Of a stretch of 64,000 nucleotides of DNA, positions 3,144-46,847 are shown piece by piece. Below the pieces are notes generated by a model that saw only the letters and a program-made list of their open reading frames with translations, had not been told where the DNA came from and did not search any database. The translations under genes and the position numbers were made by a program. The DNA is taken from assembly GCA_950295325.1 (NCBI GenBank), contig OX485807.1:52440796-52504795 (forward strand), read 5' to 3'. Within the stretch, counting starts at the first letter, position 1. Each line of letters opens with the position of its first letter. This DNA is from Polytrichum commune (lineage: Eukaryota > Streptophyta > Polytrichopsida > Polytrichales > Polytrichaceae).

Positions 3144-3267
3144 AACACCATATTCAAAATTTTGGGAGATTTCTAGTCTCCCAATTTGATGAGAGTTTAG
3201 GTCGACTCAACCTAAACTGTATTTTCCCAAAATCATGGAATTTTCCCAAAATTTCGAATATGGTGTT
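3144..3267. mobile_element. 124-bp foldback MITE related to the 16-kb transposon
   Basis: The ends are inverted repeats of 24 bp: the left begins AACACCATATTCAAAATTTT and the right is the reverse complement of AACACCATATTCGAAATTTT. They share AACACYATATTC with the ends of the 16-kb element (AACACTATATTCG). The 4-bp flank CATT is repeated on both sides (3140-3143 and 3268-3271). In the middle, 3189-3211 is an imperfect palindrome (GTTTAGGTCG, then ACT, then CAACCTAAAC), a degraded form of the 22-nt palindrome found throughout the large element. Inference: a non-autonomous derivative mobilised by the same transposase. Confidence 0.75.
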
Positions 3268-4474: not shown

Positions 4475-4478
4475 ATCT

Positions 4479-4506
4479 AACACTATATTCGTTAAATTGA
4501 GACTTT
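4479..4506 (+). repeat. Left terminal inverted repeat of the 16-kb transposon
   Basis: 28 bp starting AACACTATATTCGTTAAATT, exactly the reverse complement of 20526-20553. It is preceded by the target duplication ATCT at 4475-4478. Confidence 0.88.
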
Positions 4507-4640
4507 TTGGGCATTTTGAGACATTCATAGAAATAAGAACAAGGATAAATGGAACACATATTGGTGAAAGTTGTAAGATGCGAACACTTTGAAGCGGGTG
4601 TTTAGACCAAGAACCCCATTAATAACTCATATTTGTGATG

Positions 4641-4924
4641 GTTTAGGGTGGGCAATCGAAACCTTAGACCAAATTGAAGGGGACATCTTAAAACATTCAT
4701 ATTAATGCACACAAAATATGAGAGCTTGTATGAATATGGTTTAGGTAGGGCAATCCAAACCATAGATCTTATTGAAGGGAAAATCTTAAAACATTCATAT
4801 TAATGCACACAAAATATGAGAGCTTGTATGAATATGGTTTAGGTAGGGCACTCCAAACCATAGATCTTATTGAAGGGGAAATCTTAAAACATTCATATTA
4901 ATGCACACAATAAGGCACTCCAAA
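4641..4924. repeat. Left subterminal tandem repeat with degraded palindromes
   Basis: A unit of 98 bp is repeated about three times. Each copy contains a 22-nt imperfect palindrome at 4641-4662, 4739-4760 and 4837-4858, with a truncated one near 4907-4924. The best arms read GTTTAGGTAG and CAATCCAAAC, 8 of 10 bases each like the arms of the main palindrome family. Inference: subterminal transposase-binding sites or their remains. Confidence 0.6.
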
Positions 4925-5091
4925 CCTTAGACCATATGGAAGGGGAAATCATGTCTAACTTATATTATTGCAAAAAAAAACATACAAAGTGTGGCATGTA
5001 AAATGCATATCATGCTAACACCACACATCCATTGGATAGTGCGACCCAAAATGTTCTTGCCTATGGCCCAAAACCCTACGCCTACTATGGC

Positions 5092-5409
5092 CTATCTAGC
5101 CTCGGATACTACCTCTTTTTCTTTGGCTTCATTTTCTTTTGTTTTTTTTTCTTTTGCCTCTTTTTCTTTTGCTGCAGCTTCTTTTGCTCGCATTGCTTCA
5201 ACATTCCTGAAAATCTCCGCCCCGCGACTATAGCCATTCTTGGGGTGACCGCCATCCATAACACATTTTGGAGTCCGTCGGCCGCCCGAAATATACGTCG
5301 AAGAATTCGAATACGATGAAGTGGATTGTCTCGCATTTCTGGTCATGGCGTACATACGCTCGAACTCGATGGACGCACTAGACCGCATAGGTTTACGGGT
5401 GGGAGCAAC
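5092..5409 (-). CDS. Cargo terminal exon, lysine/glutamate-rich tail
   Basis: 106 codons after an acceptor at 5410-5412, phase 0, ending at a stop at 5092-5094. It opens VAPTRKPMRSSASIEFERMY and ends in a Lys/Glu/Ala-rich run likely to form a single helix or coiled coil. The intron before it contains a G-run (5523-5537 on the plus strand) and a degraded palindrome (5437-5458). No function recognised. Confidence 0.5.
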   Translation of the reverse strand, partial: VAPTRKPMRSSASIEFERMYAMTRNARQSTSSYSNSSTYISGGRRTPKCVMDGGHPKNGYSRGAEIFRNVEAMRAKEAAAKEKEAKEKKTKENEAKEKEVVSEAR

Positions 5410-5542
5410 CTGCAACGCGTCAATGCAAGACCACATGTGTTAGTTTAGGGAGGAAGACCCAAACGTGTCACACGTTCATTTTTTAAGTGCAAAATGATTG
5501 TAATGCGCGGTTAACCAGGTTTGGGGGGGGGGGGGGGTTCAC

Positions 5543-5896
5543 CTTGTCACCGGGGGCGTTCCCGTCGGAGTCGGCGAGGAGGGGCAATGCGTCCCGCAAA
5601 GGAATAGGAAGGGTTCCACTCTTCGTTGGCCGAGCGTCCATCCGCAGCCGCCGTTGAGGTGTACTACTGCCGCCGGGCGGAGAGGGGGATGTCCGGACGC
5701 ATTTGCGATTTATGCCCTTGAGCGGCGACGGGGACGGAGAATGCCGGAAGATTTGCTTGGGTGGGGGGCTATCGACGACGCCGGCGTCAAGAGGCTCCTT
5801 GGAGTAGTCAATGGTCGACGCGGCGTCGTAGACGGTCTCGTAGAAGAAGCTCCCCAAGTCCGACTCGCTGACGATGTCAATCGAGGGCTCCAAACG
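5543..5896 (-). CDS. Cargo downstream exon, Pro/Ser-rich
   Basis: 118 codons between an acceptor at 5897-5899 and a GT donor at 5542, both phase 0. It begins RLEPSIDIVSESDLGSFFYE and becomes Ser/Pro-rich (FRHSPSPSPLKG). No domain recognised. It lies in the same strand and phase as the phosphatase-like exon, but the splice joining them is not settled. Confidence 0.5.
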
Positions 5897-6061
5897 CTGG
5901 CGCAAAAAAGGAAACGAAACAAAACCCAAGGGAGGAGGGTTTGATAGAGCGCGTGAAAATCAAGATACATATGAAGCATATACTACACAAAATGAAAGGG
6001 CACGCCCACACACACACACACACATACATACATACACATACATACAAACACACGTAGTGTC

Positions 6062-6832
6062 TCAAATGAGCTTGTTAAATTTCGCGTGAGATAACAACTC
6101 TCTGTACAAATGGTCTCGTGGATCCAAGTATCTCTCGCCTATTGGATTGTTCCTAACAAAATTGTTTACGGGCAGTCCGCTTCCGCAGAGCGCCTGGAGG
6201 TATTTACCAAGGTCTAACAAAAATCGGTCCCGGACCTTCTCGACCGTCCAGGTAGGGCAAACTATGAGGTTGGCCGTCGGGTTCAACATGTTTTTTGCGG
6301 CGCTGTCGTCCACCATGAGCGTGTTCTCGCGGGTGGGATGGACGTCGTAGGGGACGCCTATCAAGGACGGCCGCTGGTCCCAAAAAATGGGCTTCAAGAC
6401 CTTGAGGTATTGGGGGGAAGCGGGGTTGTTTGGTTTTTTGACGACTTTGCCGTCCGGTGTGTACAATATTCTACAGGCTTCCTGTGCTAGGACCATGCAC
6501 GGGGGCTCGATGCCCTTGAAGATGAACTCCACGACGGCATTGGTGTTCTCGGCCGTCATGGAGCTCCAAACGACCACCCACCATCGTTGTTGGGCCAGCT
6601 GGAGGAAGGTCCGAAGCCACGGGCGGAGGTGAACTAGCTTGCTCTTTATGAACGTGGGCGGGCCGTCGTAATTCGCGTAATTCGCGTAATTCGCGTCCCC
6701 GTTCAGGTCTAACACCAGGAATCGTTTCTTCGGCCGCGGGGGCGGGGCGGGTAAAATCGGGGGCGCCGCCGCGCTGCCCTCTCTGCTCCTTGGAGAAGAG
6801 CGTCGGGGAGCCGCTACGCTATGCTCCGAGCC
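6062..6832 (-). CDS. Cargo exon: FCP1/NIF-like HAD phosphatase domain
   Basis: 257 codons, open. A Pro/Arg-rich lead is followed by RPKKRFLVLDLNGD (motif I with the nucleophile Asp; the usual second Asp is Asn, as I recall for many plant DLNG-type FCP1-like proteins). VVVWSSMTAENTNAVV is motif II, and then come KPIFWDQRPSLIG and NTLMVDDSAAKNMLNP (motif III, paired Asp). After motif I is a short ANY triplet repeat from a microsatellite. FCP1/SCP-type enzymes remove phosphate from Ser/Thr of proteins such as the RNA polymerase II tail; the substrate here is unknown. Acceptor at 6833-6835, phase 0. The frame ends at a TGA (6062-6064), which may be the true end or a mutated codon before the next exons. 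Confidence 0.8.
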   Translation of the reverse strand, partial: GSEHSVAAPRRSSPRSREGSAAAPPILPAPPPRPKKRFLVLDLNGDANYANYANYDGPPTFIKSKLVHLRPWLRTFLQLAQQRWWVVVWSSMTAENTNAVVEFIFKGIEPPCMVLAQEACRILYTPDGKVVKKPNNPASPQYLKVLKPIFWDQRPSLIGVPYDVHPTRENTLMVDDSAAKNMLNPTANLIVCPTWTVEKVRDRFLLDLGKYLQALCGSGLPVNNFVRNNPIGERYLDPRDHLYRELLSHAKFNKLI

Positions 6833-7302
6833 CTGCAGATACGATCGAGAGAAAACGGTGGGCGACTTATGTCATGCTATGTCCAAACGAAGCATTAAAG
6901 AAACGAGTGTTCTCGGTGCAAACACAAAACCATTTGATTCATTTTGGAGGGGGTGCAACAAGGGACACAAGAGAGGCAAGAGCATACAACATACATTCAA
7001 ACACAGGATACGAGTATATAGGAGTAAAAAATGGCGATTATATTGTATACAATGCTCTATGTACATCTTGATTGGGGGGAGCCGCGTTGAACGATGCGTT
7101 CAAACTAGCCTACTTCTACATCTAGCAAAAATTGAAGAGACGGGCCGCCGTGATGAAGACTTCGTCGCAAGCCGGGGGGTATGTGGACGAACGAATGGTC
7201 GGGGGGAAGTGGCGAAGGGCGCGAGTGCCGGGGGGGCGACGTGTCCGTGAGTTTAGGATAGTTAGGGGACACGACCAAGGCAAGAAGACAAAGACCCATG
7301 GA

Positions 7303-7697
7303 GTTTGGGTCGACCGACCCAAACTGAGTGGGGTCAGTGCATTACCTCGCCTTGGTCGTGCCTTGACGACGTGGATGCCGTCACCGCGTGCGCTGCCCCA
7401 CCTCTGTCACCGCCGCCTCCGACGACGACGTCAGCCGCAACCTGCTCCTGCAAAGGCTGACTGTCAGGCCTTTGTCCCAACCCAACCTCCGCATGCGCAT
7501 CATGCATTGGTTCATCGACTGGGTTAGGAGTAGAGGTATCACCAGGCCCTTGCGGGCCTTCAACATCTAGCATGGGCTCGTCCACCGGGGTCTGATCGGG
7601 GACGGGGTTTGGGTCGGCCGACCCAAACCCTGCTGCTTGGCGAGCGTCGCTCTGGGACGCTGCAACGTCGGCACTGTTTGGGTCGGACGACCCAAAC
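7303..7697. repeat. Palindrome cluster a (3 copies)
   Basis: 22-nt palindromes at 7303-7324 (intron), 7607-7628 and 7676-7697 (coding exon). Arms GTTTGGGTCG and CGACCCAAAC are intact in all three; the two middle bases are AC, GC and GA. Confidence 0.9.
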
Positions 7698-8818
7698 ATG
7701 TGGGGGTCGTCCCGCTGGTGGTGTGGGGGCAAGAGGATGGGAGGCCGGAGCGGCGGGGGTGCCAACGGGCTGGAAGCTCCTGGGACGCGCCAAAGGTTGG
7801 GGTCGTCCACCTGCTGGACGGGCGCGTAAGGGCGGGCGTGCGGCTGCAACAAATGCGCGAAGCTGAAGGACTGCTGCGGCGCCGGCCGCGGGCGGATATC
7901 CTGTGGAGGGAAGCCTGCGGGCAAGTGAGGGAATGAACTCGGGGGAGCCATCACCAATCCTTGCGCCAGCATGCCCTGGATCACTTGCGTGATCAGGTCC
8001 GCTTGGGACGGAGGTGGGGCCATCGCCCTTTGCCGCTCCTGCTCCAACAGGAGAGCCCTCAACTCCGCGACTTTGTTGCGGACCAAGGGCTCCTCGGCGG
8101 CGGCCTTCTGCAATCGGACGCGTTGCTCCTCGTCCCGGAGCATCTTCGCGTTGGCCTCCTCCACGGTGAGGACCTCGGGTTTCACCCTCACCATCCCGGC
8201 GAACGCTGTGGAGGAGGCAGGATCCGACCTCAGCCTCTTCGCGAGCTCCATGTCGTCCTCGTCCTCGGAGCTTATGGCGATCGTCTCCTCCACCGCATAG
8301 TCCCCGTACAACTTCTTCCCCTTCAGCATTCGCCGCTCCCTGAAGGTGGCCGTCGCGTCCCTCGAATACATGTCCTTCGCGTCGGCCACCGTTAGGACGG
8401 GTACTAGCTTGCTCTGCGGCGTTGCAGCCCGCATGGCCTTCTTCCGCTGAGGGGCCTCGGATTCTTGAGTGAATCCTGTTGCCCCTTCCTCCACCTCCCC
8501 CTCCACTTTCTCTGCTTCCTCCTCCTCCTCCTCTTCCTCCCCCTCCTCCGCAACCTCGCCACCTGCTCCCATAGAGGGATTGCCCGGATGCAACCCGATG
8601 AGCGGCTCTGGCAATTGAACGGGGGCTCGCATGGCGAATTCACCCGGTTTGATTCGCCTCGCCATATCCAAAGGATTCTCGCCCCCCTCGACGATCTCTT
8701 CGACGTAGGATCCGGGTATCCAGTCGAGGATGTCCATTCTCTTGGCCAGCGCCTTCTGGGTCCTGTAGAATTGAACATCGGCATCCTCCACATAGGAGTA
8801 GATGTTCAACCCAGACAT
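7346..8818 (-). CDS. Cargo exon 3: end of methyltransferase-like fold plus long disordered linker
   Basis: 491 codons, fully open. It begins MSGLNIYSYVEDADVQFYRT directly after the acceptor at 8819-8821, continuing the methyltransferase-like fold. Then come DILDWIPGSYVEEIVEGG, a Glu-rich run (about 8500-8560), a charged helical stretch (KPEVLTVEEANAKMLRDEEQ) and a Pro/Gln/His-rich tail. Two copies of the 22-nt palindrome (7607-7628 and 7676-7697) lie in frame and encode FGSADPN and FGSSDPN. The donor at 7345 is phase 0. No catalytic domain of its own was recognised. Confidence 0.6.
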
Positions 8819-8902
8819 CTGTACAATCAGAATCAATACTATTAGTATTACCAAATGAACAAATAATGGAAAGTGACATCCAAAACAAAATAAGAATAGT
8901 TA

Positions 8903-9102
8903 GTTTGGGTCGAGCGACCCAAACTATGGGCATACCTAGTTTGGGTCGAGCGACCCAAACCATGCATGCCCTAGTTTGGGTCGCTCGACCCAAACAGACC
9001 GTGCCCCTAGTTTGGGTCGAGCGACCCAAACAGACCGTGCCCCTAGTTTGGGTCGAGCGACCCAAACAATGCATGCCCTAGTTTGGGTCGCTCGACCCAA
9101 AC
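8903..9102. repeat. Palindrome cluster b (6 copies) in a cargo intron
   Basis: Copies start at 8903, 8939, 8974, 9010, 9046 and 9081, spaced about 36 bp, all inside the intron 9135-8819. The middle bases are AG or its complement CT in every copy. Spacers such as CAGACCGTGCCCCTA are themselves repeated. Confidence 0.92.
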
Positions 9103-9135
9103 CGTCCATATAGTTCCTTTAGGTTATTTGCTTAC

Positions 9136-10201
9136 CATGGCTGCGAAAACCGGTTTGGAGCCCCCGAAGACGTTGAAGATGCAGTCCCCTCTCTTCGTGA
9201 GGGTCCTCATCATCTGCTAGCTGCAATTTCCGCACGATCTCGTACACCTACTCTGCCCTCCTGTCCTCGACAATCCACAGCCAGACGTCGACCTCCCTGA
9301 ATTTGGGGCTGCCGTAATTCACAAACTTCGTGAAGAACGGCTCGTAGAATGGGGTGCTCATTGTCCCCTCGAATGAGGCTCCAGGGATGTTCCTGAAGTC
9401 TATCATTCTGAAGGGGAAGCGGTCCCCGGCTTTTGTCCTGATAGCCTTCCTGGCATCAGAGCCCGGCCATCATTGGATCTTGAGAGGCTTGAGGGTGACC
9501 AAGTTGAAGTAGGCGTCGCCCTCGAAGCTGACGATCTTCTTCTCCTTTATAAAGTTGGAGAAGGCACGCGCGGAGTGTTCGGGAAACGCTCGGTTCCTCC
9601 CCCCCTTCACAAGCTTGGACTTCAGGAAGTCGTCTCCCGCCTCCCTGATGAGTGCCGCCATTGACGCACTGGTGAACTTGTAGTCGGCTTTGAATGCCCT
9701 CCAGTGCGCCTCGTCGACCTCTCCATCCACTATGAGCTTCCTTTCTGGCACCAGCTTGTGCAGCTCCTGGACGATGGTCGTCTTCTTTTTCCTATTCTCC
9801 GTCCATTCCTTCATGGTGTAGCATGAAGGGACGAAGATTTTGGGCTTGATGAAGATGATCTTCGGGTGGACCCAACATCTCTTCGCCGTCGGCTGCACGT
9901 GAAGGATGTGGGACGCCGCCTTTCCCATCTCTGTCTCCGAGAGACCTTGAAGAGCCCTGAAGAACTCCCTCACCAGAGGCTTCATCTGCTTGAAGCGCGC
10001 AGTCTGATTGAAGAGCATGCCGGTGTCGGGATCCATGAGGTCCCCCGTCTCGTGTTTCTCGAAAACACTCTTCCATCTCCCCCACACGGAGTCAGACGCT
10101 GTGATCAAATAAATTTCTCCTCTTAGCTCGTTGTACTTCTTCTGCTTGTGGGAAGCGTTGTCAATCGAGGAGAATTTGTTGATCATCTGGTATTTGAAGT
10201 C
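9136..10201 (-). pseudogene. Cargo exon 2: DNA N6/N4-methyltransferase-like region
   Basis: The acceptor at 10202-10204 and donor at 9135 are both phase 0. Most of the exon (10201-9473) is open and unrecognised. Its end, after a frameshift near 9210, reads TLTKRGDCIFNVFGGSKPVF. This matches the G-D-x-V-x-D-x-F-x-G-S segment (motif I) of beta-class DNA methyltransferases, and the next exon supplies the expected continuation (GLNIYSYVEDADVQFYRTQK, like the strand after motif I with its acidic residue). A clear DPPY-type catalytic motif was not found, so the domain may be catalytically changed or the call wrong. Stops at 9470-9472 and 9248-9250 break this copy. The length (1066 nt, one more than a multiple of three) agrees with a single indel. 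Confidence 0.45.
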
Positions 10202-10248
10202 CTGCACATGAAGTAAATAACATACGTGAGAAAACTGCGAATGCAAGA

Positions 10249-10441
10249 GTTTGGGCCGATCGACCCAAACTATAAACCTCACGAGAAAAAGTAAGCAATG
10301 TTACAGTTTGGGTCGATCGACCCAAACTATAAACACGACGAGAAAAAGTAAACAATGTTATAGTTTGGGTCGATCGACCCAAACTATAAACCTGAATAAA
10401 AAAGGTAAACAATTCAAGAGTTTGGGTCGATCGACCCAAAC
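10249..10441. repeat. Palindrome cluster c: four 57-bp tandem units in a cargo intron
   Basis: Palindromes start at 10249, 10306, 10363 and 10420, exactly 57 bp apart, inside the intron 10449-10202. The middle bases are AT in all, giving a fully self-complementary 22-mer apart from one arm change at 10249. Confidence 0.92.
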
Positions 10442-10449
10442 ATACTCAC

Positions 10450-11799
10450 CTCCCATTTTGGGTTCTTGTCTTTAGCATTCTCCCTTTCCTTGGGAGGCCT
10501 GCCGTAAAACTCCCACACCTCCCTCGAGGTCATGATGTTCCGAATCCAGGATGCCTGGTACGCCCTCTTCTTGTTTCCCATGTTGAAGAAGCGTGAGATG
10601 TCGGTTAGTACAGTCTCGTTGTCAGACCAAACCACCAATGCCTTCCACACCTTTAGCTTCTCCTTTTGGTTGTTGGGGTCATCCCACTCAGTCATCAGCT
10701 GAATTTTTTTAGACGCCTCCACACTGTGTTGGCCGTCAATCAGCCAGAAGTCGCCTTTGCATATTGTCGGCCACATTTCAGGAGTCGGCATTTTCTTCAG
10801 CCCTTGTGGCATGACAACAATTGTCTGCCTGTCGTCTTTGAATTGCCCTCCCAAGATCTGAGCGACCATCCAGTCGACGTAGGCGTCCTCCTTGGCTCGG
10901 ACACACTTCTCAGGTGGCGCAAGGTGGCACTGTGCAATGTTCACCTCGAACTTGAAGTCCCTGCCCATGAAGAAGCAATGCAGGCACTTCGTCTCGAAGT
11001 TATCATTGATTTTCTGTATCTCGCCTGCATCCACCTCTTGGCCAGGTTTCGGCATCCGCAGCTCCGGGGAAACTGGCTTGGTGGTCATGACAGAGGACTC
11101 TCTCGCCCTCTTCGACGGGGTCGTATGCCGACTTCCGGACGGGGTCGTCTGCCGGCTTCCGGACAGTGTGGGCGTCTCGCTGTCAACCGGCGTTCCTGTA
11201 GTGCTAGGCCGTCTGGAGTCTGCAGGGACCGGACACGGTATCTTCACAGTTTGGGGTATGGACGACCCTGCGCCTTCTTCCGCCGTTGCCTTACGCCTCA
11301 CAGGGTTATGCGTTTTGGCTTTACTTTGCAGCGCCTTGTTGAGGACCGTGATGGCCTGTTTCAATTTTGTAAACCTACTTGCAACCTTCGTGTTGGTTAC
11401 ATTGCCATCTATGAAAATTGTCTCCGGTTTGATTGTTTCAGGCTCCACGCATGACTCCTTGGCGTATATAGTGTCGAATGACTCGGAGAACTGGTGCATG
11501 AACATGTGGGCGTTCTGCACGGCGGAGTTCTCGAGAATTACGTCCACGTAATCCCCGAGGGCTTGGACGGACGCAACCTCCCATCCTGTCAACGTTGTCC
11601 AAGTGTGGTTCTCGTGGGTCCCTACTTTTACCACGAATAGGAGCTTGAACTAGGAGCCCTTTACAACCTGAACTGACCACGCAAGGACAAGCCCATCCTT
11701 GGGCACGTATGAGTCGTCCTGGGGGGTTTCATACTCCTGCCATATTACGTCTGGCGCGAGCATAAAGAACCTTTCTCCAGGTCTCTTCTTGGGGGCCAT
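10450..11799 (-). pseudogene. Cargo exon 1: ParB/sulfiredoxin-like domain
   Basis: 450 codons from MAPKKRPGERFFML, with one stop at codon 50. About residues 110-260 are Ser/Thr/Pro-rich and look disordered. From about residue 285 the order of elements resembles the ParB N-terminal fold: FEVNIAQCHLAPPEKCVRA, then MVAQILGGQF, then IVVMPQG, then FWLIDGQHSVEASKK at about 352-366, then KVWKALVVWSDN and ISRFFNMGNKKRAYQ. The core DGQHS corresponds to the DG-x-(H/R)R-type motif of ParB-like proteins. Bacterial and phage ParB-like domains are often joined to DNA methyltransferases, which fits the next exon. The fold call is inference from reading; a profile search would decide. Confidence 0.5.
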
Positions 11800-11826
11800 C
11801 TGTAAGTCCAGAAATTAAAACTATTA

Positions 11827-12440
11827 GTTTCGGTCGATCGACCCAAAGTAGTCGACAATGCATTTAACATTTGGTGGAAATGGAACAAATGTATTTTATT
11901 GACCAGCCCGAATTCAAGGTTTGGGTCGATCGACCGAAACCTTGAACACTTGGTGGCTCGTATTCTTTAAATGTGGAGGCTAGAGTGTTTGGGTCGAGCG
12001 ACCCAAACATTTCATTAATTTTAAAGCTGATTTCTAGTGTTTCAGTAGATTTGAAATTGGGGTTTGGGTCGCTCGACCCAAACATTTTATTAATTCTCAA
12101 TCTGGTTTCAAGTTTTTTTTTTAATTGAGGTTTGGGTCGAGCGACCCAAACATGAGGCTCTGTGGTTTGGGTCGCTCGACCCAAACATTTTATTAATTCT
12201 TAATATGGTTTCAAGGGTTTTTTTATATTTTGAATTGGGGTTTGGGTCGAACGACCCAAACATTGCAGCCTCATGTTTGGGTCGCTCGACCCAAACATGA
12301 GCCTTTGGGGTTTGGGTCGAGCGACCCAAACATGAGGCTGCAATGTTTGGGTCGATCGACCCAAACATTTAATCAATTTTCAAGCTGATTTTAAATGTTT
12401 CGTTACATTTTAAATTGGGGTTTGGGTCGCCTCCCGAAAC
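11827..12440. repeat. Palindrome cluster d (11 copies) in the cargo 5' UTR intron
   Basis: Copies start at 11827, 11919, 11987, 12062, 12130, 12165, 12240, 12275, 12310, 12345 and 12420. The outermost two are degraded. The middle bases vary (AT, AG, CT, AA). All lie between the coding exon start (11799) and the presumed UTR donor at about 12554. Confidence 0.9.
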
Positions 12441-12554
12441 TACTTAGTTTCCAGAGGCATGTTTAATGTTTAAACATCATATACAATGCATTGTATATGA
12501 AACATGATCGTAAAGGAAGTGAAGCAAATTGTGTAGAGTGAAATGATATACCTT

Positions 12555-12860
12555 GTGTTTGAAACTCTTGTAAGCTGCTCTTACAAGCTGATTCTTATAA
12601 CCAGAATCCAGAAACTCTTGTAAGCTGCTCTTACAAGCTGATTCTTAGATCCAGAATCCAGAAACTCTGTGATATCACTAAAAATCAACACTCAGAAACA
12701 CCTAAAAATCACTATGAATCTCACAAGCACTCTGAAACCCTCTCACAAACACCCTGATTCTTGCAAGCCTTCTGATCACTACTAATAACAACCTGAAATC
12801 ACTCCACAACAACAACAAAACTCTGATGTCACTCACTGCATCCACTCTACAATAAGAAAT
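12555..12860 (-). other. Probable 5' UTR exon of the cargo gene, with a 52-bp tandem duplication
   Basis: On the minus strand CACAAG is followed by GTATAT at about 12554, a plausible donor for the intron that ends just before the ATG at 11799. Within the putative exon, GAAACTCTTGTAAGCTGCTC and the following bases to CCAGAATCCA occur twice (about 12559-12663). Each copy holds a short hairpin, CTTGTAAG against CTTACAAG. No TATA box was identified upstream. Confidence 0.4.
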
Positions 12861-13962
12861 GAATGACACTCAACTAAAGCGATCCGGACTCACTCAATGC
12901 GTGCACGCTGAACCAGGAAGAGAGAATAAGCCTATAATCCTAGAAGAGGACTCGAAGGACCAGAGAGGAGACGAAGAATGCAAAGGAAGAAGTGAAGAGA
13001 AAGACAAAGAGGAAAGCGGCGCGTCCAAGCAATACCCAATGAGCGCAAGAAGCTATGCGAAAAGACAAACTCACAATCGCTTGGCGCGTCGCTATGGAAA
13101 GCGGCGGCGCTTCGCGCGGAGGGAGAGGAAAGCGAGAAAGAGAGAAAGAGAGAAAGAGGAGGGGAGAGAAGGGGAGAGCCGAAGGGGTTCCCCTTCAGAC
13201 AATCCTGGCCATGCGATTTCTCGGGCCCATCAACGGCCCAGAAGCCTCGCGGGCCAAAACCCTGCCAGGTGTCCAAACCTCCTTGGTGGAGGTGGTTGCC
13301 CGCGCGGCTTCTGGTGTTGACACATGGCACCCTATGGACATTGCCTTCGGCATTGTCCTTGCCTCTAGGGGCGGGACATAGGAGGGTCGGCGCCTCTCTT
13401 GGCCGCCCGGCCCCGGCATTCTAACCCGGTATTCATTACCGGCAATTCAAAAACATTCAAAAAGCTACATAGACTAAGGTGTTGCACAATATTTACACCA
13501 TCGCCAACTCTGATTTTAATGGTGTTGAATTGAATGATCGCCCATTGGAATTGATAATTGATAACATCGTAGCCATTATTTGTTTTGGTATTTCAATAAT
13601 GTAGTCGTATGGAATCATATGAGAGTGTTACAAAATCTAAGAGGAGTAATTCATAATTATATTGCAATCTTCAAAGGCAATTACACGGTGCAATTATATA
13701 AATATGGTAACCGTTCACATGGTTAAGGGTATTGGGTTATGTATTCTAATTTCTATGATGGTTGTTGGTAGAGGACAAAGCTCTAGACTACAATGGATAC
13801 CCTAACAAGTAGCATTACAGTGAACATTAACATATGTACTTAGAAGCTCAAATTTGAAGTACATGGGAGAAACAAAATGATAACAAATGTATCTACTTCA
13901 ACCCCATGGACTTCACATATCATATGAAGCCATTTAAACATTCAGTTTTTTGTTCGATGATG

Positions 13963-13986
13963 CCTAAACCCTAAACCCTAAACACC
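13963..13986 (-). repeat. Telomere-like repeat (CCCTAAA), inverted relative to 14688
   Basis: CCTAAACCCTAAACCCTAAA followed by CACC. Its reverse complement GGTGTTTAGGGTTTAGGG also begins the repeat at 14688, so the two face each other about 700 bp apart. Confidence 0.8.
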
Positions 13987-14687
13987 ACAAACCATAAATG
14001 AATGGCACACACGTCAAATGACAGGGCCTTGGTGCTTGTAGTTCTCAATACAAATGTATATTGTCATCATAACATCCTAATTCACGAAAGAATGAACTCA
14101 CAAATGTCATTTGTGATTTATGGTTCCATTAATGACTTCCACATACGTAGGTTAATGTCACACTTGCATGCTTGAGGATGGAGCAATGTTGTGTGCACAC
14201 ATTACAAACAACATATGTTCTTTTGATTAGCGCAAATTGAAAGTTGGCCAAAATATTCAACTTTGTCATGGCATCAATTCCTTGTTTTCAAAATATAAGT
14301 CCTCATGTGAGGGTCTAAATAATTGCATTAACTATTATATTTAGTGACTTTTAGTATATGAGGTTTTATAATATTGGCACCTCTTTTGTCAATATATTGT
14401 TTGAATTATACCACAATGTTTGACTCCAAGTAGAATAAAACCCCTTAGATATAACCTTACATATTGTCATAGGGATATTGGTAATTAGTGTATGCATTCA
14501 TATTTAGTGTATCAAACTCTATATATCCAATTTAGTTTTATCTAGTCAATGAAAGTGTTGTAGTGTCACTACAATGAATATGATAATTACACTCAATATG
14601 ATAGTTAGTGTTTGATACACTTAATAAGAATGTTTAAAATAGATGTTGTTTGTATATGGGGGCATCAGTGAACCACTACTAAATTTT

Positions 14688-14720
14688 GGTGTTTAGGGTT
14701 TAGGGTTTAGGGTTTAGGGG
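14688..14720 (+). repeat. Telomere-like repeat (TTTAGGG)
   Basis: GGTG followed by about four TTTAGGG units. A shorter run of the same orientation is at 15430-15450. These match the Arabidopsis-type plant telomere unit. Confidence 0.85.
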
Positions 14721-15875
14721 ATAGGGTTATAACATATTAATCTATCCAATGTCAATGTATAACATTGTCTTACTCGTGAGAAGAGTCTTATAGGAAGGTT
14801 ATAGTGAAGACGATATTGTGTTTATTTGAGACGTTTAAACGCGATATATTGATTGGTCTTGTGTTTATTCAAATAACATGAAATATTGTGGATGTTAATA
14901 GGGGCTAGGGGTCCAACTTTGGATGTTTCGCTCACTTTAGGGAATCACATATTAGTCGCTAATAAACCATCGTTCATGATGTATTTAATATATGGAATGT
15001 GATGTAAAAGTAAATCGGAGAAGCACAACATCGTGTTGTTATTCATTGTTCTCTCCACGTGTATTAGATAATGGAGGAAGATATAACAGATATTGTTTGC
15101 ATAATATGAAGAAGAGTCTAATCGGAAGGTCATAATAAATACAATCTTGATCATGTTAATATGTTATATGGGACGTTTAAACATGATATCCTAATTGGTT
15201 TTGTATTTAGTCAATGCGTATTTCATGTTGTGGATGTTATAAGGGTTTAGGGTCCAATCTTCGATGTTTTGCTCTCACACATTAGTAAACTTGAAGTGAA
15301 CTTGAGGATGGATTCAAGTAACATTAAAATATTGAACTAAAAAGGGACATTGGTAGTTAGTATCCCCTTAACAACGTCCACATACGTTCATCATTGCCAC
15401 TCTTGCATGCGAGATAATAGAGCAAGGTTCTAGGGTTTAGGGTTTAGGGGAGACAAATAAATATTTCTATTCATCATGACAATGGCCTCAAGCCTTGGAA
15501 ACTCTCTCATAATTGCAGCCTCCAAATGGCCCAAACCCCACCTAAATAGGGTTATACTTGAAAGCATTGAATGGAGTTGTGTTTGGGTCTACATATTGGT
15601 TAAAATATACCTTGATGATACTTGAAAAAATTAATGTGGCCGGCACCCTTCCTCCCAACAGCGTATGTCATATCCACACAAGACAAAAAAAAAAGATTAA
15701 ATATCATAGACTAAGTCATATGACGGCTGGGGTATGAGAGGGGCATTGATAGATGCGCATTTTCTACTATAAACAGAAAACGGGGAATTATGTCAGGAGG
15801 TTTGAAAAAACCGCTGCAGGAGAACAAGGCGGGAAAAGCATCCAATGAGGAAGTCGGAGAAACGGAGGTGGATAG

Positions 15876-15882
15876 TATAAAG
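15876..15882 (+). promoter_or_regulatory. Candidate TATA box of the DUF7869 gene
   Basis: TATAAAG within GATAGTATAAAGGGAC. About 90 bp downstream TTCAAG is followed by GTTCGT (15972), a good donor for a 5' UTR intron ending with the acceptor at 16946-16948, just before the ATG at 16954. Confidence 0.45.
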
Positions 15883-16147
15883 GGACGCACCCCCCAAAAC
15901 TCTGTCCTTTTTTGCTCTTCTCCCACTCTTGAATTCGTACAGAGAACTCTTAGTCGGAGCTATACTTCAAGGTTCGTGCATGCTGCCGTTCATTACCACT
16001 TATCCACAGCATGCAAGTTCATGAGCACCTATCCACAGCATGGAAGCCCACCGGGAACTTTGCAATGAGCTCAAAATCATATGGGATTTCGGATTATCCG
16101 CCGCATTATCCGCCGGATTTTGAGGGTTTTAGTGTGACTCTTATCAG

Positions 16148-16764
16148 GTTTGGGTCGGTCGACCCAAACCCCTCCGCTAGTGTGGGTGGGTTTCAACCTG
16201 ACCCTTACACAGGTTTGGGTCGGTCGACCGAAACCCCTCCACTCGTGTGGGAGGGTTTCAGCCTGACCCTTACACAGGTTTGGGTCGGTCGACCGAAATC
16301 CCTCCACTCGTGTGGGAGGGTTTCAGCCTGACCCTTAACCAGGTTTGGGTCGGTCGACCGAAACCCATCCACTAGTGTGGGTGGGTTTAACCCTAAACCC
16401 TAAACCAGGTTTGGGTCGGTCGACCGAAACCCATCCACTAGTGTGGGTGGGTTTAACCCTAAATCCTAAACCAGGTTTGGGTCGGTCGACCGAAACCCCT
16501 CCACTAGTGTGGGAGGGTTTCAACCTGACCCTTACCAGGTTTGGGTCGGTCGACCCAAACCCCTCCACGAGTGTGGGTGGGTTCAGCCTGACCGTGATCA
16601 GGTTTGGGTCGGTCGACCCAAACCCCTCGACCAGTGTGGGCGGGCTTGACCAAAACCCCTCGACCCCTTGACATACAATGTTTGGGTCGACCGACCCAAA
16701 CCCCAACCCCATCTTGGCCGGCTGGAGGTTGACCATGAGAAGGTTTGGGTCGGTCGACCCAAAC
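16148..16764. repeat. Palindrome cluster e (10 copies), tandem unit about 65 bp, in the 5' UTR intron of the transposase gene
   Basis: Palindromes start at 16148, 16213, 16278, 16343, 16409, 16475, 16539, 16602, 16680 and 16743. The middle bases are GT (AC in one, the same on the other strand). Five copies share the arm change CGACCGAAA. The unit also contains a CTCCACTMGTGTGGGWGGG hairpin, so each 65-bp unit has two inverted repeats. Confidence 0.92.
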
Positions 16765-16953
16765 CCCCTCCCAAAATGTTTTTTGGAACTTGCGCAAAGT
16801 ATTGGGAGTTCACATTGTAGTTGTGTTGCAAATGTCTTTATCCTCGGTGTCCCCATTTATCATGATGTCTTGCATTTTTTGATATTTGATTCTTTTGAAC
16901 CCTTACATGGTGTGCATGTTTGTTGAGGTTTCATGTGCATGTGTGTAGGCGAA

Positions 16954-19900
16954 ATGGAGGGAGCTGGTGGAAGAGGGGATGCCTTCTCTGAAGACATGGG
17001 CAACTCCCATTCTTCGTCTGGGGATGACCTAGACATTGTCGGGGAGGATAGTTTTGGTGACAGTGCAGATGAAGGTCATTTGGGGAGTCCTTCGCCATCT
17101 GCCTCTTCTTGCCCCACTGTGGAATGTGTTGGGCTTTCACGAGCTTCATGGGTGAATTTGGATGTGGTACTTGTTAATGACAGTGGAGTTGCTGTGGCGG
17201 AGGGTATTTGTCGTAACACACATCCACAAGATTGCATTGATGAAAACCCCCTTGGCACCGAGGACGTTGGAGTTGTTATATTGGAATCACTCGTACATTC
17301 CGAAGTGAATCCAACTCATAGGTTCTCGTTGCGAAGGTGGCCGTTGAGGAATGTGACAATTGATGGGGTTAATTTGCATGAGCATGAGCGACGACACATC
17401 CAAATCCAACAGGAGCTCCAAGCAAACATTCGGCCACGTAAAGGCCTACGGAAGTACGATACATTGGCACGTCCTACTCCGTCTGCAAATGAGTGTAAAC
17501 GTCAAAGGTTGCTCTGTGAGGAATCTATTAGAGAAGTTGCCACAAAGGATTGTTGTGTACATCGTTGTTGCCAATTGTTCCCAAGGGATAAATTGAAAGC
17601 CATCCGCGAGGAAATGTGGCTTGGAGATTTCCGTCTAAGATCCACCAAAAAACTTGATGTCCATAGGGCGATACATGTGAACGGAGCGGGTCGAAAGGTC
17701 ATCACCCTTGAGAGCATAGACGTGTGTTGTACGGCATGGTACACCATTCACGGTGTGTCAAAAGCGGAATTTTATAGACAAGCCGCGTATGCCAAGGAAG
17801 GACGCCGGTCCCGTCACCATGGGAATACGGGCTTAAAGAAACCAAGGGAAGCAACGAGACAAGCAACAGCCACTCTGGCAACCATCATTGTCCCCCTTGC
17901 CGATGCAATGCCGCACAAAACACGCACACTCTCAACCGGTGAAAAGGTTGTAGAGAAGGTTCTTCCTACAGGCACGAAATGGAAAGACATATTGTTGGAC
18001 GTAAACGCAGTTGGCGAGAAGGCTGGGTTGGACCCTATTTCGTTGTCGAAACTGAGTGCAATAAAAAAATCTCACTTTAGCGAATACATCACAAAAAGAC
18101 GAGGCGACAAATTTGCCCGTTGTTCCAAATGCGAGAAGTTGAAACGCCTTCGAGATGCACACACGATGGGGACAGAGTCCTATGCCGCACATCAAATGAA
18201 CTATTTCAAGCATGTGAACATGCAAGAGGCACACCGTAATGATTACTACACAAATAGAGCTTTGTCCATCTCTAGGCCTTTGGAGGTCCTTACAATCATC
18301 CATGACAAAATGGACCATGCCAAAACAGCCTCACCATGTTTTGCAAATCGAATAAAAGCCACGGACGGCCTTTTTAAGCTTCCTGTATCGGTTACAGGTG
18401 ATTTCGATAACAATTGCATTGCATTACCTAAACACAAATTTGTGCTTTTAGGTTTGTACTTGGGGCCATAGATGTACACCATGTGAATTTTTTGGTGTTA
18501 TAATTGAATATTAAACCATTGGGTTGGCTTTGCAGGGATGATTGCACATGGACACGGTGATGTCAAGTATGCTCATTATGCTCTTGATTTGTATCCGGCG
18601 GATTCAAACCACACAATAGGGTCATTTGCAAAGCTTTTACGTGATTTGGAGAAACCGCCGTCCTATTCATCAAGATTGTTATTTGAAAACTCGGGATCAA
18701 CACCTCTATATGAAGCGGTCTTGGATGGAAGAGATGTATGCGTGCACTCCTTACCGGAGCCACCAAGTGAAGATGTGATAGCTAAGAATTTGCCCCCAAC
18801 TCTACGTGTCCAATTGGACAATTGTGCGAAGGACAATAAAAGTAGATATGTTTTTGCATATTGGTCGTTGTTGGTTGCGAAAGGCATTTTCAAGGAGGTT
18901 TTTGTGTCCTTTCTATTGGTAGGCCACACGCACGACGATATCGATGCATCTTTTGGACGTTGGAGCATGAAGTTGCGCGAGGAGGATTTTCCAACAATCC
19001 CATTGTTGATGAAGTCGTACATGGATTTGGAGAACATTCCCGTCATCCCCCATATGATCGAGGAGGTTCCCGACTTCAAGGCATTTATAGAACCGTATAT
19101 TCGAAGCGGAGCTCACCGATTGATCGGACATACGAAGGCACAACAATTTCGGTTCTACGTGCGTGACGATGGTGTCCCCGCCATGCAATACAAGTTGTTG
19201 TGCACGTCACAAGACTGGAGCCCGCCGGAGGGTCTCCTTGTATGGCGTGTTGATGGGGAGGGAAGGACGATGTTGCCTGACGGAGAGCCTAAGCCTTGCA
19301 AACCAATACCCATGAAGAATTTGGAGGACATTTGTAAAGGCATATCAGGCTTCATACAATATTGGGAGAGTTTGAGGGTAGCGGATGTTGGTGGATCGTG
19401 TTGGCTTCGTTACGGAAGTTGGATACAATATTGGACACGTGTTCGTGGCGCTTTGGCAAACCTTCATCAAGATACACCCCTTACTTTAAGGCATGGGTTT
19501 TGGCCACAAACACGTGTCAACGTACAAGTTTCGGAGGCTAGTCTTTTGGGAAATGGAGAGGTTCGAGAGGAGTTTGATGTGGACGACCATTACGTGGGAC
19601 CTGCTAGTAGTCGTCCGCCACCATCTTTCCGCATTGTAGTGGATTGTCATGAAGGTTATATGCTCATTTTGCGTCCTGGAGATGAGACATATGCAAAGCC
19701 AGTGTGGGTGGCAAGAGCTTTGTCCAAACCAAATTTTGTAACTTCCAGCCCTCATTTTCGACAAATACAAGTAGAGTACTACCGACCGACAGCAGGGAAT
19801 GAAGATGTTGTTCGGCATTATACAGGCTGGGATACAAACCCTAACTTTCGGTGGAAGGTGGATTCTGAGCACGGTCCATCTTGGGTAGATACAGATTCCA

Positions 19901-20022
19901 TATTCATAGCATGGAAACCACGGAAAAATCATAGTGGATCAGTGTCCATCCCTCAAAAGTACATAACTTTTGCAAAAGACAACCTTGCTCGGATCGCAGA
20001 AGAAGCAACCCACGTTGAATGA
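16954..20022 (+). CDS. DUF7869-family protein, candidate transposase (2 exons, 994 aa, intact)
   Basis: Exon 1 16954-18451 and exon 2 18536-20022, with an 84-bp intron (GTTTGT..TGCAG). The joined length of 2985 nt is open throughout. The start was chosen as the first ATG after the acceptor at 16946-16948. Features: a low-complexity acidic N-terminus; Cys-rich KDCCVHRCCQ; VCCTAWYTIHGVS; CSKCEKL; IIHDKMDHAKT (Asp 451 and 454); VQLDNCAKDNKSRYVF (Asp 594); VGHTHDDIDASF (about 629-639). The last three blocks are the hallmark of DUF7869 proteins, which occur in high copy in many animal and plant genomes and are thought to be transposon-encoded. Their spacing is compatible with an RNase H-like DDE/D active site, which is inference. 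As the only intact nuclease-like gene between the 28-bp inverted repeats, it is the best candidate to move the element. Confidence 0.82.
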
Positions 20023-20525
20023 GAAGTTGGTAGGATTGTGTTAGCATGATTATAGTGTAATATGTAATTCGACGAATATATATTACTCATATGTGTGCTC
20101 CTCAAACTTGGGGCAAAGTTTGGGTAGAACTTGCGAATGCTATATTGTTTGGGGTTGGATGAATATCCATTTACTATATTTCAATACAGTTGTGAAGTTC
20201 ATTTTTTTATTAAGTTTGGGACTAAATTTTCCATTGAAGAAAAATGCATTTATTGCATGTACTTTGTATGTTGCAATGTCTATATTTTATTGACCATGCT
20301 AATAATAGAAATCATTTTATATGTTTCTTGGGTGAAACTAGTTTGGAGTGCTCTACCCAAAGTGTTTTTGTTGATGAAGTTGGTGTTGAGTGCTCTACCA
20401 TATGTGCTTATGTCCACACCCCATAGATTTGGGATATTAGAACATATAATATATTTGAGATTGTTCGCAATATAGTTTCGGAACACGGAATGTTGTTTGA
20501 TCCATATATTAATTTGAGACTAGAG
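20023..20525 (+). other. 3' flank of the DUF7869 gene, with degraded palindromes
   Basis: AT-rich. 20341-20362 reads GTTTGGAGTG, CT, CTACCCAAAG, a degraded copy of the 22-nt palindrome; a weaker one is near 20384. Next to the right end a short hairpin (TTGAGACT against AGTCTCAA, 20513-20537) overlaps the terminal repeat. Confidence 0.5.
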
Positions 20526-20553
20526 AAAGTCTCAATTTAACGAATATAGTGTT
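20526..20553 (-). repeat. Right terminal inverted repeat of the 16-kb transposon
   Basis: Exact reverse complement of 4479-4506. It is followed by the target duplication ATCT at 20554-20557. Confidence 0.88.
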
Positions 20554-20738
20554 ATCTTTGCATTCACTTAATCTGTTGGACCCTCAAGCGTAGTGTGAAA
20601 CAATCTTGGTCTGGCTCCGCCTTTTGCACCAATGAGAGTGCTTGAAGTGCAATGGCCCACAATCTTGTGTGTGAAAGTGGTCCTCATTGATAGTCAATAA
20701 CATACTTAATTTATATTTTATATAGATTACAATACCTG

Positions 20739-20861: not shown

Positions 20862-21612
20862 TGACCCTTTGTATTTGAGCACATTACCTTCAGATTTCCA
20901 GGCCCACGGAACAAGACAGGATTCTTGATGAGGGTTGTTGTGATAAGTTCATCCTTGAATGAATAATTTAAAATATTCATGCATGCTTAAGGATGGGGCT
21001 ATAAAGGGCCCCACTTTTGTGATATCTTGTGGGTGACTACTGTAGCTAGGTAGACAATCCGGTACATAGCAATCTGTAAAGACGAAGAACTTTTGCATTG
21101 TCTAGCTTGCAAATATCGTCCCAACATCCAACTCACCACATGCTTCTCATTGCAATTGGAAACAACAGAAGAATTCAGACTGGGAGTCGCTAGCCTATCC
21201 ATCGCTTTATCCATACAGCCCAAAATGAATTGTAGAATTTCTTGTAGATTTCTTGTTCATTAGGGAGTTTCTTGCTGCATGGCTTACTTGAATGGCAAGG
21301 GTTTCTGGAATCAAAGGTAGCCCAAATATTGTTCATTTTGAGAGATTTCCAGTCCAGAGTGCTTGCTTCTGTATGCAGGTTGACATAATAACCTTTCCAG
21401 TGTTGCATGGTTGGGCATCATTTCCTGTGCCAGGAAGCTATGAACAATTTGGATCTTTCTGATGCTGCTTGAAGGAGCCCCATGGAGTTTCTCACTCTCG
21501 TCTCCTGCAATTTAATGTAGCAAGCTGGCATAACCCTGGTGCAGAACTAGAGGACACCGAGGAGCTGTAGTTTTGTAGGATACGTGTATCTGGGTATCCA
21601 ATCGCACTGACT

Positions 21613-27277: not shown

Positions 27278-27835
27278 TTCATTAAGCTTAATTCACATTT
27301 TTTTATGATTCATTGTGCTACTTCCGTCGTGTGTGATTCCGTCCTACATGTGTGTGGACTTTTATCATTCCAATTCCATCTTGTTAATTAGTTGTGAAGC
27401 TCAAAAGCTTGGCAAATCATCAATGACTAATAGTTAGGACAAAGTCCAAGGTAATGTCTTTTGAGTATCGCATTGTCTTTAAGTTTCATGAATTATGCTT
27501 TGCGATAATCTCAAATTTAATTCCTCTTAATTTAATTTGCAATCATTCGGCCATTCTTCCAAGACTGTATTCACCATCTTCATCTTCAGTTTATTTGGTA
27601 ACTTCTCACAACAATTATCCACAAGATTATGTAAAATAATGCATCAACAACTAGGCTACATCCATTAACTACATCCCTTAGTCCAATTTAGTCTCAAATT
27701 GAATTGCCTTTGGTAAAGTCTTACTCCAATCAAATAATTTCTCTTTCTCGAGGTGGTATTGTCCTTTGCACCTTATAGCCTGCTACTAAGCATGTCCATG
27801 GCCTGCATTCATACCATTAGCCTTGTACTGGGTAA

Positions 27836-28737
27836 CAGGCCATAAATTTGACACCCTAGCCAAATTTCCAGGGGACACCCTGTCCCAAATTTTGGGTGTC
27901 CCAAGGACACCCTGCTCCAATTTCTGGGTGTCCTCATATATTTCTCTTAATTTTTTTTTGTCAAAATAGGTACAATTTTGAAAAATATATAATATCATTT
28001 CAAAATCTCAATTAAAAATAAAACAAAATCACTACATATCATAACTTGCAATGCAAATCAAACCTACAAGCGGCGGCCTTTCATAGCACACCACTTTACC
28101 CATACTTGTTCAAAGTCAATGGCCTCTATGGGGATTTTTGCCATTGCAACTCTCATTTGTGCTTCCAAAGTCTCTAATACCAAACTACACCGTAAAGTAG
28201 ATTTAATATGATTTTGAGTAGAAAATCCTCTCTCACAAGAAGCTGTACTAGCAGGAATTACAAGAACAACTTGCCACAACTTTGTCATATGAGGATATCT
28301 TCCAACATAGTCCAAATTGGAAGAATAAACCATCCAAGCTTGGTGCATTTTAAGACCACCACATGAAATATGAAGAGCTTCAAATCAGGAAATCGTTGCT
28401 GCAATGATTCTATCACCTTAACCACATAGGCCTGTGCAATCACCTTGCACCCATGGAGGGTACCATCACCACCAAACTCAATTGCATGAGGCAATGGTGC
28501 ATAATGCAATATATGTGAATGCACCACTCCTGTAGAGTCTTGAAAATGGATCTCACCACCTCTAGAAATGTCCAAAAATTGTGCCACAAATTTGGTATCC
28601 GCTGATAGGCCCTACAAGTACAAGGGACACCCTGAATTTTTTTTGGGTGTAAAAAGGACACCCTGTTTGAGATTTGGGTTTCCTAGGACACTCTAGGAAG
28701 CAAAATACACCCCCCAAGGTGTCAATTTTATGCCCTG
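27836..28737 (-). mobile_element. 902-bp non-autonomous hAT transposon with 8-bp target duplication
   Basis: Ends CAGGCCATAAATTTGACACC and, inverted, CAGGGCATAAAATTGACACC (18 of 20 equal). CTGGGTAA is repeated on both sides (27828-27835 and 28738-28745). Copy B of the host repeat shows the empty site with a single CTGGGTAA. The interior holds the 3' part of a hAT transposase gene on the minus strand. CAGGG-type ends with an 8-bp duplication are diagnostic of hAT. Confidence 0.95.
28064..28600 (-). pseudogene. hAT transposase C-terminal fragment
   Basis: 28064-28348 reads VIPASTASCERGFSTQNHIK and LETLEAQMRVAMAK, the hAT dimerisation domain with its ASCERGFS hallmark. Upstream, in another frame, AYVVKVIESLQQRFPDLKLF matches the stretch that normally precedes it. 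The zinc-finger and catalytic parts are missing, so this is an internal-deletion derivative with at least one frameshift. Confidence 0.9.
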
Positions 28738-29454: not shown

Positions 29455-29687
29455 CAGTGATTGGGGAGATTTTTGGGCATACTAATCGGTTGAGATCCTA
29501 GTGTTTGCAAGTCTAATCGGTTACATGCATGTTGACATCCTCCGGTTTTCCTTCATTAAATTGGGGCATATTCTATAGATTCCTCTAAAATGATCTGTAA
29601 TTATCCTGCAGACTTGAACTTCAACCGGTTATTTCTCAAACTCAACCGGTTCATTTGTAACTAACTGCCGGTTCTCCCCGATCATTG
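29455..29687. mobile_element. hAT MITE, copy 1 (233 bp)
   Basis: Starts CAGTGATTGGGGAGA and ends TCTCCCCGATCATTG. Flanks are ATTCCACA and ATTCCAGG (8 bp, 6 equal). Copy B lacks it. Inside are several AACCGGTT-type boxes. Confidence 0.8.
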
Positions 29688-46700: not shown

Positions 46701-46847
46701 TTAATACACCACGCATAACCCACACATGACTGCCTAGGATCACCAATCACAAGAACATTATTCCTCCTCAAAACCACTAGTAAAACCCACCTTAGAAGAA
46801 CACTAGAAAAATTTCCCCTCCTCCCCACACCATTAGAGACACAATGT

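Follow-up and report, generated by a model that had tools for sequence, protein, structure and literature searches.

A 16-kb two-gene transposon of Polytrichum commune, likely a member of Sola, with palindrome arrays in its introns

In a 64-kb stretch of the genome of Polytrichum commune (contig OX485807.1 of assembly GCA_950295325.1; the whole stretch of 64,000 nucleotides is called the window here, and positions are counted from its first letter), the nucleotides 4479–20553 form a DNA transposon of 16,075 bp of which both ends are present. It is a two-gene terminal inverted repeat (TIR) transposon with a 4-bp target-site duplication (TSD), and it harbors, mostly in its introns, arrays of a 22-bp palindrome which is spelled differently in related families. 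Taken as a whole, these features are best explained by a transposon of the Sola kind which uses a DUF7869 protein as transposase and whose palindromes would be bound by a protein of the element for anti-silencing or regulation. We give this explanation a probability of roughly 60%. The element is most likely of a kind that is already known rather than a superfamily unknown so far. More surprising are its palindromes with their family-specific spellings, the mechanism of which we infer.

The borders of the element were determined by an inverted-repeat search, which returned the arms 4478–4506 and 20526–20554 with 29 nt and 100% complementarity, the outermost base of each arm belonging to the flanking ATCT. 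Together with direct reading of the sequence this bears out the perfect 28-bp inverted ends and the matching ATCT flanks described in an initial annotation of this DNA. Up to three mismatches allowed, a 25-nt end sequence occurs at just these two sites in the 64 kb, the mean in 100 shuffles being 0. The termini of the element are AA...TT. The two arms are divergent, as had also been annotated, with the left gene on the − strand and the DUF7869 gene on the + strand. The borders are:

4475–4478, no strand: left target-site duplication ATCT (direct sequence reading)
4479–4506, + strand: left terminal inverted repeat AACACTATATTCG..., 28 bp, 100% complementary to 20526–20553
20526–20553, − strand: right terminal inverted repeat, 28 bp, complementary to the left end
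20554–20557, no strand: right target-site duplication ATCT (direct sequence reading)

A second, miniature element with related ends lies in the same window:

3144–3267, no strand: 124-bp miniature transposon with the ends AACACCATATTC and the TSD CATT/CATT (end-sequence scan)
3195–3217, no strand: palindrome GTTTAGGTCGACTCAACCTAAAC with one arm mismatch in the centre of the miniature, within a 26-nt, 92% match to a palindrome of contig L002 (see below)

Four perfect matches to AACACYATATTC were found in the 64 kb, all of them ends of the large element or of the miniature, with about 0.015 expected on both strands; when one mismatch is allowed, six matches were observed, and 60 first-order shuffles averaged 0.95. 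The ends of the large element start with AACACT and those of the miniature with AACACC, 11 of 12 positions agree, and the duplications are of equal length (4 bp). Thus, the search for these ends at further loci that had been proposed along with the annotation is in part positive within the window, the miniature having near-identical ends and its own CATT duplication. Repbase assigns non-autonomous elements to one superfamily if their TSDs are equally long and no more than one mismatch is found in the positions 1–11 (PMC4455052; this and the other papers cited by PMC number are quoted from the parts of their text available to us).

The right arm of the large element is occupied by the following gene:

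Exons 16954–18397 and 18536–20022, + strand: DUF7869 gene, 976 aa, intact (open frame without stop; Pfam)

The second exon matches the Pfam family PF25273 (DUF7869) with E = 8.7e-42, and no other Pfam transposase family was matched at E ≤ 1 among ten scanned frames of the element. The protein is the best transposase candidate, as had been supposed from the start. Its motifs HDKMDH, QLDNC, and GHTHDDID start at the residues 450, 574, and 611. The aspartates of QxD and GHTHxDID are invariant in all five DUF7869 sequences. Four of these also have a D followed by xM upstream, the fifth being a short fragment. The QxD and GHTHxDID motifs and the upstream D look like a DDD triad, and in a structure model of low confidence the order of strands and helices appears RNase-H-like by eye.

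Relatives were searched for with the codon pattern of GHTHxDID in 84,980 prokaryote species genomes, which yielded five contigs, four of them with DUF7869 above the Pfam cut-off. The remaining one (L001) was dropped, as its 62-aa frame is probably a chance match. Contig L002, from a bin labelled Synechococcales (assembly G001), carries a stop-to-stop DUF7869 frame of 963 aa without introns, and the protein of the window is identical to it in 429 of 928 aligned columns (46%). Two more contigs of the same bin, L026 and L027, were located via the L002 palindrome and encode homologues of the left gene. L027 codes for 1,339 aa from the ATG in five exons without reaching a stop, as the contig ends before the NIF domain, and L026, the 5′ end of which is missing, codes for 1,615 aa in five exons up to the stop, with ParB-like, methyltransferase-like, and NIF regions in one frame. 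The contigs L003, L004, and L005 from bins labelled Bacteroidetes contain DUF7869 frames of a different branch and are probably eukaryotic contamination as well. In viral contigs the searches with DUF7869 and with one left-arm exon found no relatives, and the GHTHxDID pattern had 0 matches there.

The contigs L002, L026, and L027 are very probably eukaryotic contaminants of a bin labelled as cyanobacterium, because introns are present in L026 and L027 and the DUF7869 family is rare among the sampled genomes: of 386 and 395 genomes of two phyla, one each contained it, in both cases the centre genome, and it was absent from all 14 controls. A search for the chlorophyll-binding family was positive in the G001 bin but likewise in a cyanobacterial control, and a histone search of the bin found none; plant DNA in G001 is thus not demonstrated by these markers. 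That the contigs originate from a moss of a biocrust is our unconfirmed guess.

The left arm contains one large gene, which is broken in the copy of the window, and two further exons downstream:

6062–11799, − strand: left accessory gene, broken, with the exons 11799–10450, 10201–9136, 8818–7346, and 6832–6062 (splice models; homologues on L026 and L027)
5543–5896, − strand: downstream exon which resembles the 3′ frames of L026 by eye, followed by the intron 5410–5542
5094–5409, − strand: downstream exon, C-terminal or a separate small gene (open frame after a CAG acceptor)

All three introns separating the four exons of the left gene have GT...AG borders. The reading frame is interrupted by three in-frame stops and a frameshift, and about 90 residues present in both relatives are deleted. 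The encoded regions are ParB-like, methyltransferase-like, and NIF phosphatase. The NIF domain was detected with E = 1.4e-11 in the window and 1.9e-14 in L026, and in both proteins the position of its DxD motif reads DLN. With this change of the DxD, catalysis may be weak or absent.

The motif FW(L/I)I(D/N)GQHSV is conserved in all three left proteins, in the forms INGQHSVAAS and IDGQHSVEAS. The region around this ParB-like motif aligns over 19 columns (hhalign probability 72%) with a protein of the viral contig L028, which belongs to DUF6551 (E=4.2e-10) and was the only match of the GQHS pattern in viral contigs. The left proteins are like the ParB-superfamily proteins of prokaryotes and viruses (DUF6551, DndB, the N-terminal part of GmrSD) in the (I/D)(D/N)GQH motif and, by eye, in its continuation. 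Unlike these, they align over the 19 columns only and gave no ParB-type Pfam match in window, L026, or L027; a tblastn search with the ParB-like part against phages found none. The methylase family PF01555 was matched by L026 below the threshold (E = 0.027, 14.8 bits vs. a cutoff of 26.7). Since neither L027 nor the window protein has a methylase Pfam match and a DPPY-type catalytic motif is absent from the L026 protein, a methyltransferase activity of the accessory protein is doubtful, and in the window copy the region is in addition partly deleted. Both labels, ParB-like and methyltransferase-like, reflect weak similarity. An Rfam scan gave 0 matches, and searches of PHROGs, NCBIfam, PADLOC, and, by sequence, the PDB returned nothing informative except the NIF domain.

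From published features the element is a likely member of Sola, DUF7869 being set against Sola by description only. Sola elements have a DDD transposase, a 4-bp TSD, TIRs of 11–1124 bp, and a size that can exceed 15 kb (PMC10741241); they are found in Physcomitrella and are seemingly uncommon in flowering plants (PMC10741241; table of PMC9033089). Both elements of the window have a 4-bp duplication (ATCT/ATCT and CATT/CATT), and the large one, with TIRs of 28 bp and a length of 16,075 bp, lies within the ranges of 11–1124 bp and 2 to >15 kb, which are permissive. The element resembles Sola and Sola1 (e.g., Sola1-1_Ec32 and the Physcomitrella Sola1) in the 4-bp TSD, the large size, the variable TIRs, the occurrence in a moss, and perhaps the DDD type of the candidate transposase. 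The initial annotation had known of no described plant superfamily for such an element; by 4-bp TSD, putative DDD triad, size, and moss host, Sola fits (PMC10741241, PMC9033089).

The arrangement of the genes has a counterpart as well. Sola1-1_Ec32 from Ectocarpus, 21.5 kb long, carries a gene for a 1104-aa ParB-like and DNA methyltransferase protein opposite the transposase; similar proteins of green and red algae are cited, and it was suggested that these proteins bind the element to which they belong and mark it (PMC12477816). In the window element, too, the accessory gene is on the strand opposite the transposase gene. Compared with that of Sola1-1_Ec32, the accessory protein is of greater length, with 1,615 aa in L026, where the 5′ end is missing; it has a NIF phosphatase in addition, and its methyltransferase part looks degenerate. 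A further difference is the intronic palindrome arrays, as the available parts of the published Sola1 description mention none.

It is possible, although we consider it rather doubtful, that the element is not a Sola but represents a DUF7869 superfamily which has AACAC ends and is yet to be described. DUF7869 is the only Pfam transposase family that the ten element frames match at E ≤ 1, no mention of it was found in the open-licence PMC literature, and its likeness to Sola is one to published descriptions. Against this speaks that the element matches the Sola features in the available parts of the published accounts throughout, in the length of the TSD, the putative triad, the size, the host group, and the accessory gene. 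Other superfamilies were rejected. The inverted ends contain CACTA and are accompanied by subterminal motifs as in CACTA (En/Spm) elements. These elements begin with CACTA/G and have a 3-bp TSD, whereas here CACTA begins two bases inside the end and reads CACCA in the miniature, the ends are AACACT and AACACC, both elements have a 4-bp TSD, and no CACTA transposase domain was found at E ≤ 1. Ginger requires TG...CA termini (PMC10741241), in contrast to AA...TT here, and Mutator, to which VANDAL belongs, has a TSD of 7–12 bp (PMC10741241) vs. 4 bp here, where a Mutator transposase was not matched in Pfam at E ≤ 1 either.

The palindrome GTTTGGGTCGNNCGACCCAAAC was found in 33 copies (at most three mismatches), which are arranged in five clusters between 7303 and 16764; none is found elsewhere in the window and 0 were expected. 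Within the window, the repeat family is hence private to the element, in line with the initial annotation. The clusters and the related motifs near the ends are:

7303–7697, no strand: cluster A with three palindromes, one in an intron and two in an exon (motif scan)
8903–9102, no strand: palindrome array B, 6 copies, in the intron 8819–9135 (motif scan)
10249–10441, no strand: palindrome array C, 4 copies, in the intron 10202–10449 (motif scan)
11827–12366, no strand: palindrome array D, 10 copies, in a presumed 5′ intron of the left gene (motif scan; acceptor 11800, candidate donor near 12551)
16148–16764, no strand: palindrome array E, 10 copies, in a presumed 5′ intron of the DUF7869 gene (motif scan; acceptor 16948, donor not fixed)
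4638–4910, − strand: 98-bp subterminal tandem repeat, 2.8 units (TRF)
20341–20362, + strand: right subterminal motif GTTTGGAGTGCTCTACCCAAAG, with a half copy at 20383 (motif scan)

Although exons make up 51% of the element, 31 of the 33 palindromes are outside the modelled exons; the binomial tail for this avoidance (3e-8) is overstated, as tandem copies are not independent. The consensus sequences of the five arrays are identical at 20 of 20 fixed positions, whereas 30 flanking positions are 26% alike, which is about chance, and the unit lengths of the arrays differ from about 35 to 110 bp. The core CpGs of the palindromes are intact (66 of 66), with an observed/expected CpG ratio of 0.62 in the remaining non-coding DNA of the element and of 0.57 in the right flank. 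A 22-bp motif, GTTTGGAGTGCYCTACCYAAA, which has the same outline as the internal palindrome and is related to it, is found near both ends of the element in opposite orientation, on the left in three 98-bp units (4641, 4739, and 4837). The best inverted pair with the motif at 20341 agrees at 19 of 22 positions, compared with maxima of 15–18 in 30 mononucleotide shuffles. In addition, a degenerate palindrome is present at 5443 in the intron 5410–5542, and the same half-site variant occurs in mirror positions, at 11827 on the one hand and at 11919 and in array E on the other.

The relatives have palindromes of their own. In L026 and L027 they read TTCAGCTCGA-N-TCGAGCTGAA and are in introns, and in L002 they read TTTAGCTCGA-N-TCGAGCTAAA with three copies upstream of the ATG. 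The introns 1–4 of L027 contain 3, 1, 1, and 3 copies, accounting for eight of the nine matches; the ninth, at 1432 with five mismatches, was excluded from this count. In L026 the introns 1–3 contain 2, 3, and 2 copies and two more copies are downstream of the NIF stop, all nine being outside exons. As the L026 contig begins within the gene, its introns 1–3 are the introns 2–4 of L027. The corresponding introns of the window, with the acceptors 11800, 10202, 8819, and 6833, contain 10, 4, 6, and 1 copies; the correspondence was judged from aligned exon ends and is approximate for the last one, where L026 has an extra small exon. Thus, the palindromes keep their symmetry and their places in introns while the sequence differs between the families. 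Our searches of the open-licence PMC literature found no description of an intronic palindrome system with family-specific spellings.

How might these parts act together? We suggest a cut-and-paste transposon of the Sola kind in which the DUF7869 protein would be a DDD-like transposase generating the 4-bp duplications. The divergent accessory gene codes for a very large protein, which combines ParB-like, methyltransferase-like, and NIF-phosphatase-like regions. The 22-bp palindromes would be the binding sites of a DNA-binding protein encoded by the element and acting as a dimer, for which we consider first the ParB-like accessory protein and second the transposase. From the arrays in the introns the binder could mark the genes of its own element, preventing their silencing or regulating them, and the family-specific spelling would restrict it to its own kind. 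In the copy of the window the transposase gene is still intact and the accessory gene broken.

The self-targeting role, either anti-silencing or regulatory, is favoured by analogy to the VANDAL elements of Arabidopsis. VANC proteins bind short motifs in noncoding tandem arrays and induce a loss of DNA methylation, and related VANDAL families use different VANC motifs (PMC5735166, PMC10398659). Common to both systems are a transposable element with an extra gene, noncoding tandem arrays of a motif, and a spelling that varies among related families. Unlike the element described here, VANDAL belongs to another transposase superfamily and, in the available text, the VANC motifs have 8–9 nt and are not palindromic; the likeness is a functional analogy, known on our side from sequence. 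The layout shared by related elements, together with their differing palindrome spellings, suggests that the palindromes are a tag which the element reads on itself.

Two other explanations of the palindromes have to be weighed, and we regard each of them as unlikely. According to the first, the palindromes act as RNA, forming hairpins of 9–10 bp in the intron pre-mRNA which affect splicing, export, or the production of small RNAs. The position of 31 of the 33 copies outside the modelled exons, their absence from the 3.8 kb between the arrays D and E, and the symmetry retained while the sequence changes between families agree with this, and three perfect copies, taken from the three spellings, have folding energies of −12.3 to −13.2 kcal/mol vs. 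shuffle means of −2.6 to −3.7. Nevertheless, the 124-bp miniature is too short for a gene and still contains a palindrome, and related 22-bp motifs are found outside the genes near both ends. In the commonest variant one base pair is lost, by which the fold drops to −9.2, and at 11827 the mirror-image change is found in the other half-site, as expected of DNA half-sites. Because of the palindrome of the gene-less miniature, the motifs near the ends, and the mirrored half-site variant, we favour DNA recognition over RNA hairpins.

According to the second, the palindromes are passive intronic satellites or sites of a host protein, without an element-specific role. The arrays are indeed tandem, tandem repeats expand by slippage and are tolerated in non-coding sequence, and a host factor is conceivable. 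However, passive satellites fit poorly with the 20 fixed positions that are common to five arrays although their flanks are unrelated and their unit lengths differ, and with the palindromes in the corresponding introns of another lineage, and a spelling that differs between families is unlike a conserved host site.

Least of all is the left gene an ordinary host gene captured as cargo: NIF phosphatase domains do occur in ordinary plant genes, but in another organism L026, and L027 up to the end of its contig, share the order of the regions and the intronic palindromes. For this reason the left arm is a conserved accessory gene, and the cargo genes of the initial annotation are mainly this one gene. 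A comparable ParB-like and methyltransferase gene is located opposite the transposase in the Ectocarpus Sola1, as far as the available text of PMC12477816 describes it. The DNA-modifying capacity ascribed to the cargo is doubtful in view of the stops, the frameshift, and the deletion in the window, the sub-threshold methylase match of L026, and the lack of one in L027.

Several observations weigh against a Sola-kind element whose palindromes are read by its own protein. The transposase and accessory genes are on separate contigs in every relative, the ends AACACYATATTCG have 0 matches in G001, so no relative joins these ends with these genes, and the contigs L003–L005 have no palindromes of the kind scanned for. 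The two structure models of the DUF7869 protein are both poor (pLDDT 35.5 and 45.6), and a Foldseek search with them, which was set aside, gave 0 matches at E ≤ 0.001. Binding of the palindromes by an element protein is putative. Two of the 33 palindromes are exonic (7607 and 7676, in the exon 8818–7346), and no palindromes are found in the 3.8 kb between the arrays D and E, which include the presumed promoters, or in the coding intron of the DUF7869 gene. It may simply be that tandem repeats build up wherever the coding sequence leaves room for them, and recent duplication alone may explain the intact CpGs.

The window contains further features. Exons of a 2-oxoglutarate/Fe(II) dioxygenase (DIOX_N, 2OG-FeII_Oxy) are located at 21571–24417, and as only about 1 kb separates their start from the right end of the element, the insertion is near a host gene. 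The regions 27278–32178 and 54926–59248 are ∼95% identical in several direct pieces about 27 kb apart and in one short inverted piece; either a segmental duplication or a mobile element that is present twice could account for them. The region 45000–50000 is LINE-like, with an RNase H open reading frame (E=5.1e-13), an extreme strand bias, a GC skew down to −0.47, and an AT skew up to +0.35. The open reading frame 36730–37308 has a weak Myb/SANT-like DNA-binding match just below the Pfam cut-off and possibly belongs to a Harbinger-type transposon. At 1024–1502 a 190-bp tandem repeat is present in about two copies.

The palindromes and the accessory protein allow a more far-reaching proposal, which we put forward tentatively and as one that may well prove wrong. 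The plant Sola elements would possess a self-recognition code, in which the giant ParB-like/methyltransferase-like/NIF protein dimerises on the family palindromes in most introns and its phosphatase-like end acts on chromatin or RNA polymerase II, so that its own family alone escapes silencing. Protein and palindrome would change together into mutually blind dialects, GGGTCG-NN-CGACCC, AGCTCGA-N-TCGAGCT, and AGGTCGA-N-TCRACCT. If this is true, the code would be an anti-silencing system which is independent of VANDAL/VANC and has a DNA-binding fold of prokaryote type as its basis.

For users of the G001 species genome the findings are a reason for caution, as it appears to carry contigs of eukaryotic transposons. 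The element would mark DUF7869 as a likely transposase domain, and in a probable land plant the accessory gene is fused to a NIF phosphatase. For the proposed self-binding of the ParB-methyltransferase proteins in algal transposons, the available text of PMC12477816 names no target sequence. The element and its relatives supply candidate targets, namely palindromes in corresponding introns which are spelled differently in each family, and palindromes with swapped dialects make the proposal of self-binding directly testable.

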